A stretch of 64,000 nt of DNA from Streptomyces sp. NP160. Its GTDB lineage: Bacteria > Actinomycetota > Actinomycetes > Actinomycetales > Quadrisphaeraceae. Location: positions 244,852 to 308,851 of the forward strand of contig NZ_VDMJ01000024.1 of NCBI RefSeq assembly GCF_006335115.1, written 5' to 3'. Each line of letters opens with the position of its first letter. The stretch's first letter is position 1. The notes under the pieces are model-generated. The model was not told the DNA's origin. It ran no database searches and saw only the letters and a list, made by a program, of their open reading frames with translations. Shown here in pieces: positions 2,813 through 3,573 of this stretch. The position numbers and the translations under genes are program-made.

Positions 2813-2886
2813 TGCCCCGGGTGGGACTCGAACCCACACTGAGCGGGTTTTGAATCCGCGACCTCTGCCAATTGGGTTACCGGGGC
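2813..2886 (-). tRNA. tRNA with anticodon CAA (leucine), short variable arm
   Basis: The 74-nt cloverleaf has a 7-bp acceptor stem GCCCCGG/CCGGGGC, a 3-bp D stem with GG in the loop, and a perfect 5-bp T stem GTGGG/CCCAC around TTCGAGT. The anticodon loop is TTCAAAA, so anticodon CAA at 34-36. The anticodon stem has an A-C mismatch next to the loop. Discriminator base is A; CCA is not encoded. The variable region is only 5 nt (TCAGT), whereas leucine tRNAs normally have a long class II arm. I call it leucine from the anticodon alone. Confidence 0.75.
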
Positions 2887-2961: not shown

Positions 2962-3573
2962 GTGAGCGAGCAGGGTACCCAGGCGGAGCCGGGCGCAGGG
3001 CCGCGTCGGCGCGTCGTCGTCGCGGAGGACGAGGCGATCATCCGCCTCGACGTCGTCGAGATCCTCCGTGAGGCGGGCTACGACGTGGTGGGCGAGGCCG
3101 GTGACGGCGAGAGCGCCGTCCGCCTCGTCGAGGAGCTCCAGCCCGACCTGGTGGTCATGGACGTGAAGATGCCCGTCATGGACGGCATCAGCGCCGCTGA
3201 GCGCATCGGCAAGGCGCGCCTGGCGCCCGTCGTCCTCCTGACGGCGTTCTCCCAGCGCGAGCTGGTGGACCGCGCCCGTGACGCCGGCGCGATGGCGTAC
3301 GTGGTCAAGCCGTTCACCTCCGCGGACCTGCTGCCCGCCGTCGAGATCGCCGTCTCGCGCTTCCAGGAGATCGCCGACCTGGAGGAGGAGGTCGCCGACC
3401 TCACCGAGCGCTTCGAGACCCGCAAGCGCGTCGAGCGGGCCAAGGGCCTGCTCATGACCCGCATGGGGCTCTCCGAGCCCGAGGCGTTCCGGTGGATCCA
3501 GAAGACCTCGATGGACCGCCGCCTCACCATGCGCGAGGTGGCCGACGCGGTGCTCAGCCAGGTCAGCAGCTGA
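2962..3573 (+). CDS. pdtaR: ANTAR-domain response regulator (PdtaR-like)
   Basis: 203 residues. A receiver domain (about 16-130) carries the acidic pair E22/D23, phospho-acceptor D67 in VVMDVKMP, and the conserved lysine in VVKPF. A helical linker leads to an ANTAR RNA-binding domain (about 140-198: RKRVERAKGLLM, then AFRWIQKTSMDRRLTMREVA). In mycobacterial PdtaR, the cognate kinase PdtaS phosphorylates the receiver and the ANTAR domain acts on hairpins in target RNAs to prevent termination. No kinase gene is adjacent here. The GTG start was chosen because it follows a -10 hexamer by 6 nt and there is no better start. Position between pyk and polA matches mycobacteria. Confidence 0.9.
   Translation: MSEQGTQAEPGAGPRRRVVVAEDEAIIRLDVVEILREAGYDVVGEAGDGESAVRLVEELQPDLVVMDVKMPVMDGISAAERIGKARLAPVVLLTAFSQRELVDRARDAGAMAYVVKPFTSADLLPAVEIAVSRFQEIADLEEEVADLTERFETRKRVERAKGLLMTRMGLSEPEAFRWIQKTSMDRRLTMREVADAVLSQVSS

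Follow-up and report, generated by a model that had tools for sequence, protein, structure and literature searches.

Textbooks give every bacterial leucine tRNA a long extra arm. In Escherichia coli, the leucine elements are A73, the A15-U48 pair, G18G19 and A20a, and tRNA-Leu variants without the long arm stay active (Giege & Eriani, PMC9976931). A 2023 review described long arms as universal in tRNA-Leu except in animal mitochondria, where LeuRS recognizes tRNA-Leu(UUR) via A73 and A14 and without a long arm (PMC9976931). In addition, a short-loop tRNA-Leu(UAG) has been reported from a horizontally acquired tRNA cluster of Mycobacterium (PMC6582537). No report of a bacterial class I tRNA-Leu beyond this mobile mycobacterial tRNA-Leu(UAG) was found in the open-access literature, although earlier reports may exist; the main text of a transposon paper on M. 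tuberculosis gives no data under the names of the leucine tRNA genes.

The gene considered here lies at positions 2813-2886 on the minus strand of the window, that is, the whole stretch of 64,000 nucleotides that was analysed, and it is a class I tRNA-Leu(CAA). Bacterial class II tRNA-Leu (E. coli tRNA-Leu, Streptomyces bldA) is alike in anticodon family, A73, A14, the 15-48 pair, A20a, the 3-bp D stem, unpaired 13-22 and the CAA locus, whereas class I has a 5-nt variable region instead of a long stem-loop, mostly A9 rather than G9, and a different acceptor- and D-stem sequence. A short variable region is shared with animal mitochondrial tRNA-Leu(UUR), and a mismatched pair closing the anticodon loop with the human mitochondrial tRNA (PMC9976931); however, those tRNAs are organellar, while here a full covarying cloverleaf is found in free-living bacteria with class II isoacceptors alongside. 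The mycobacterial tRNA-Leu(UAG) (PMC6582537) is likewise a leucine tRNA of actinobacteria with a short variable loop, but it is an extra copy in a mobile cluster, and the present gene is the sole chromosomal isoacceptor at a conserved locus. Phage records annotate class I genes plainly as tRNA-Leu, and Streptomyces tables contain a tRNA-Leu(CAA) entry with no comment on its form; therefore, the novelty lies in recognizing the architecture, its spread and its swapping rather than in the gene itself.

Structure and leucine identity of the tRNA

The gene (74 nt, CCA incompletely encoded) was called by ARAGORN as a 75-nt tRNA-Leu(CAA) at 2812-2886 of the minus strand, and it was matched by the Rfam tRNA model RF00005 at 2813-2886 minus (49.4 bits, E 1.5e-7) and by a family model, R1. 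Read 5' to 3', the 7-bp acceptor stem (GCCCCGG with CCGGGGC) is followed by TA and by the D arm (2861-2877, minus), in which a 3-bp stem ACC/GGT, whose pairs covary in the family, encloses the 11-nt loop CAATTGGCAGA with A14, A15, G18G19 and A20a. After a single C, the 5-bp anticodon stem (GCGGA with CCCGC) carries the loop TTCAAAA with the anticodon CAA at 2850-2852 (minus; anticodon position 35 of the 75-nt call), and this loop is closed by an A31.C39 mismatch (2847-2855, minus, with A at 2855 and C at 2847). The variable region TCAGT (2838-2842, minus) covers positions 44-48, with U48 pairing with A15, and is followed by a normal T arm (GTGGG, TTCGAGT, CCCAC) and, after the acceptor stem, by the discriminator A73. 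Together, the T, D and anticodon arms form the cloverleaf of an elongator tRNA with a leucine anticodon, while the long variable arm of class II is missing, the region being 5 nt. The initial annotation had already read the CAA anticodon, the 5-nt variable region and the A-C mismatch in the anticodon stem, all of which agree with ARAGORN, Rfam and the sequence; the D stem of only 3 bp, with 13 unpaired with 22 as in class II tRNA-Leu, was unmentioned there.

The good cloverleaf noted at the outset was borne out by covariation in relatives. Across 24 related class I genes, cloverleaf pairing reaches 98.5%, and compensated, two-sided changes were found in 14 of 20 pairs of the alignment, two of the three D-stem pairs among them; none of 500 shuffles scored as high, and the cloverleaf is therefore not a product of chance. 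At pair 31-39, A.C occurs in 11 and C.U in 8 of 164 family members. The minimum-energy fold of the bare 2813-2886 sequence differs from the cloverleaf, and no sigma-70-type promoter was seen for the tRNA in a scan that covers some promoter types.

All identity elements of the bacterial leucine set, namely A73, A14, the 15-48 pair, G18G19 and A20a, are present in the 2813-2886 sequence (PMC9976931). Among 164 distinct class I UUR tRNAs, A14 is found in all 164 and A73 in 163, the remaining member having G73, while 15-48 is formed by A-U in 160 members and by G-C in 4. None of the 164 pairs position 13 with 22, the same as in class II Leu, compared with 83% paired in other tRNAs; the GGYANA motif and the variable-region length are partly imposed by the search pattern, and the other identity features are free of it. 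The A15-U48 pair required in E. coli is replaced by G15-C48 in the four Streptomycetaceae-type members (L123, L183, L189 and L237, from Streptomyces, Kitasatospora and a relative), which is a covarying change in a leucine identity pair. When the variable arm and the anticodon were removed, the nearest tRNAs of class I Leu(CAA) outside its own class were class II Leu tRNAs, and those of class I Leu(UAA) were class II Leu(CAA), with Lys a close second; Lys, Arg and Met tRNAs trail by little (55-61% identity). The similarity between class I CAA and class I UAA genes is almost as high as that within the CAA genes.

Isoacceptor set, decoding and spread of class I leucine tRNAs

The genome (98% complete) gave 44 tRNA matches and one LeuRS gene. 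Five of the tRNAs are for leucine: GAG, CAG and UAG belong to class II, and UAA and CAA (2813-2886) to class I, the completeness of this set resting on the search tools. A long-arm CAA pattern, which detected the class II gene of the congener G004 as a positive control, found no class II CAA gene in this 98% complete genome or in seven other class I genomes (one each from the same genus, the same order, another family in the phylum and Planktophila, plus three from the same class), and the gene at 2813-2886 is thus the sole CAA isoacceptor found in the genome. The initial annotation had named a class II CAA gene elsewhere, together with a silent gene at 2813-2886, as a finding that would count against it; the class II gene was looked for and not found in the genome.

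The rare TTG codons that the tRNA had been suggested to decode are rare indeed: with genes picked by a simple G+C rule, the 16,478 codons of the window include about 1,724 leucine codons, of which 4 are TTG and 0 are TTA. Among the leucine codons at the sampled loci of low-GC actinobacteria that have class I CAA, about 12-22% are UUG, and in Planktophila, one of these UUG users, no CAA tRNA other than the class I gene was found. Moreover, of 59 UUG codons that fall on conserved columns of the ANTAR genes in class I genomes, 48 stand on leucine-majority columns, which account for 13 of the 130 conserved columns; this argues that UUG means leucine in class I cells, where the class I gene at hand would read it. 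UUG could in part be readable by the UAA tRNA as well, which is also class I in this genome.

BLAST and ARAGORN turned up many further Leu(CAA) and Leu(UAA) genes of class I in relatives. R1, a covariance model built from 24 class I genes including both class I genes of this genome, scores these two at about 96-97 bits (95.7 for 2813-2886) and any other tRNA at 66 or less. With R1, at least one class I leucine tRNA was found in 118 of 119 genomes of the order, the anticodon having been read at the fetched loci, while an exact pattern for CAA alone matched 28 of 396 genomes drawn from across the phylum. Scanning GTDB contigs yielded at least 77 class I leucine tRNAs (77 of the 80 among the matches listed), mostly in Actinomycetota; the non-actinobacterial cases among the matches listed are scattered in Chloroflexota, Planctomycetota, Rokubacteria, Firmicutes and others, some in tRNA arrays. 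The other 3 of the 80 listed matches were rejected as chance matches outside tRNA genes. A tight pattern gave no class I tRNA-Leu match on viral contigs, and BLAST found tRNA-Leu genes of the class I type in Streptomyces, Mycobacterium and cyanobacterial phages.

Several individual cases were also seen. A class I tRNA-Leu of 75 nt at locus L333 (genome G068) has the anticodon UAG, and short arms therefore extend beyond UUR-reading leucine tRNAs; a short tRNA-Leu(UAG) is also carried by phage Finemlucis (L291). The Mycobacterium avium plasmid pS2b (L293) has an array of eight ARAGORN tRNA genes including a class I Leu(UAA), which the gene table, having no RNA genes, does not list. In a large tRNA array of a Chloroflexaceae MAG (L325 and L334), Leu(UAA) and Leu(CAA) are class I, and Leu(GAG) and Leu(CAG) are class II. 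As well, several short-arm leucine tRNAs are present in a Saccharofermentans MAG (L226), with UAA and CAA as well as the ARAGORN calls AAG and CAG, and this may be a further case outside actinobacteria.

The ANTAR-linked locus and its neighbouring genes

The tRNA is divergent from a response regulator gene with an ANTAR domain (2962-3573, plus; Pfam Response_reg and ANTAR), which marks the conserved locus. This gene adjoins tRNA-Leu(CAA) of class I and class II, head to head, at 94 of 105 CAA loci; the class II counts include L040 (81 nt with CCA), which is actually class I and is placed as such in the tree, and the sampling of class I loci relied in part on a pattern, which means that the class ratio is not an estimate of frequency. 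The motif ACTAAAGTACC at 2948-2964, directly before the GTG of the ANTAR gene, is kept across the genus, and homology to the class II congeners ends there; it is possibly the -10 element of a leaderless mRNA.

Species differ in the class of tRNA-Leu(CAA) at this site, some having class I and others class II. Within the genus itself, class I is found in G000, G002 and G005 and class II in G001, G003 and G004, and G000 (class I) and G004 (class II) have the same ANTAR protein sequence wherever the two align. The flanking DNA on either side shares about 90-93% identity with the class II congeners, a pyruvate kinase gene (395-1816, plus; an ORF named from its protein sequence) forming the conserved flank at the far end of the swapped block, while the block itself, made up of the tRNA and the gene that follows it, fails to align to them save for part of that gene. 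Between congeners, class I and class II genes differ along their whole length; the acceptor stems, for instance, read GCCCCGG and GCCGGGT, respectively. At locus L049 of G005, a third distinct class I tRNA-Leu(CAA) allele of this genus has a homing-endonuclease-like gene alongside. On the ANTAR protein tree, the class label requires 15 changes, at least 8 of them forced by starred branches, and clusters no better than chance, whereas the tRNA tree with the variable arm and anticodon excluded, a weak tree of 66 columns, requires 2 class changes compared with 19.2 for shuffled labels. Rather than an arm lost repeatedly, the difference between the two trees favours two old lineages, class I and class II, that replaced each other via transfer, gene conversion or differential loss.

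The gene 3' of the tRNA (2022-2774, minus) encodes an HTH domain followed by two LAGLIDADG motifs, which read LYLGDG and LFHSDG in the window frames, and it has a frameshift near 2415-2440; intact homologues are present in G001 and G004. Neither Pfam nor NCBIfam recognized the LAGLIDADG part, and a PDB sequence search gave nothing useful; only a fold search with an AlphaFold model of the homologue at L179 recognized it, with I-DmoI at Z about 16 and WhiA at Z 15.7. The LAGLIDADG fold, taken from this homologue, is thus joined with an acidic residue, Asp, in both motifs of the window frames. The two-repeat fold is that of LAGLIDADG homing endonucleases (I-DmoI) and WhiA, from which the gene differs in its N-terminal HTH, in standing free beside tRNA-Leu(CAA) and in being frameshifted in this genome. 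Of 105 CAA loci, 15 have it, compared with none of 110 UAA loci (p about 1e-5); in every case it lies on the 3' side of the tRNA and on the same strand, and all four matches in the 119 genomes of the order are at the tRNA-Leu(CAA) locus. It is missing at 90 of the 105 CAA loci and is not commoner with class I than with class II (p 0.7). A conditional or non-translational role of the tRNA together with the HTH gene, which the initial annotation had raised, is unsupported because this gene is absent from most loci, resembles a homing endonuclease and is frameshifted here.

Competing explanations and significance

Very likely, the gene at 2813-2886 is the functional and only tRNA-Leu(CAA) of its cell and belongs to an old class I lineage, is charged by LeuRS and reads UUG, at a locus that swaps with class II. 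The lineage would be one of class I bacterial leucine tRNAs that mainly read UUA and UUG. We infer that the gene is expressed and that its product is charged by the single LeuRS, most likely via elements common to class II tRNA-Leu, namely A73, A14, the Levitt pair 15-48, and G18G19 and A20a within a long D loop whose stem has 3 bp; this LeuRS could then do without the long arm, and UUG would be read as leucine by the charged tRNA. Class I and class II genes would be alternative alleles that have many times taken each other's place at the ANTAR-linked locus.

A short variable arm and A31.C39 are atypical for tRNA-Leu, and Lys, Arg and Met tRNAs are not far behind in identity, which would suit a CAA tRNA charged, wholly or ambiguously, with an amino acid other than leucine, UUG being partly recoded. 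This is highly improbable given the conserved leucine core, the class II Leu(CAA) that occupies the same site in congeners, and the UUG codons on conserved leucine columns. Likewise, the unusual charging that the initial annotation had considered is unsupported because the identity elements are kept, there is a single LeuRS in the genome, and the two classes replace each other at one locus. Equally hard to credit is a conditional or regulatory RNA acting outside translation with the ANTAR or HTH gene: the head-to-head arrangement with the ANTAR regulator at nearly all CAA loci would fit, but class II tRNAs keep the same position, the HTH-LAGLIDADG gene is mostly missing, 2813-2886 is the only CAA tRNA, and genomes in which UUG is frequent still have class I as the sole CAA tRNA found. 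It is also very unlikely that every class I gene derives, separately and recently, from a class II gene at its own locus that lost the long arm, as the shared locus and the leucine D arm common to both classes might suggest; congeneric genes of the two classes differ throughout, the tRNA tree without the variable arm, with its 66 columns only, needs just two class changes, and class I CAA and UAA genes are nearly as close as CAA genes are to each other.

As for the way in which swaps happen, a mechanism that would add to the preferred reading of an old, exchanged class I lineage and does not contradict it can be proposed only tentatively: the HTH-LAGLIDADG gene would be a homing endonuclease that cuts tRNA-Leu(CAA) alleles, with repair copying the neighbouring tRNA. 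Its confinement to CAA loci in a fixed 3', same-strand position, the LAGLIDADG fold with Asp in both motifs and, in this genus, the replacement of a tRNA-plus-nuclease block between about 90% identical flanks point to such a mechanism. On the other side, the gene is now missing at most loci, shows no preference for class I and could be a WhiA-like DNA binder; that it drives allele replacement is nevertheless plausible. Somewhat more doubtful still is the wider idea of a cassette, in which the class I and class II forms of tRNA-Leu(CAA) would be interchangeable alleles at a single locus, exchanged together with a homing endonuclease linked to the tRNA, and a sole-copy tRNA would thereby be part of a selfish homing system in actinobacteria.

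The gene at 2813-2886 is very probably an ordinary UUG-reading leucine tRNA in an architecture that the 2023 review limits to animal mitochondria. Leucine tRNAs without the long arm occur in whole groups, including Mycobacterium, Nocardia, Rhodococcus, Corynebacterium, Bifidobacterium and Streptomyces, and annotation or isotype rules that presume a long arm would misjudge such genes. LeuRS is a drug target in mycobacteria, and class I tRNA-Leu concerns the natural substrates of this enzyme. Moreover, with class I and class II alleles naturally paired within a genus, the part of the arm in leucine/serine discrimination is directly testable.
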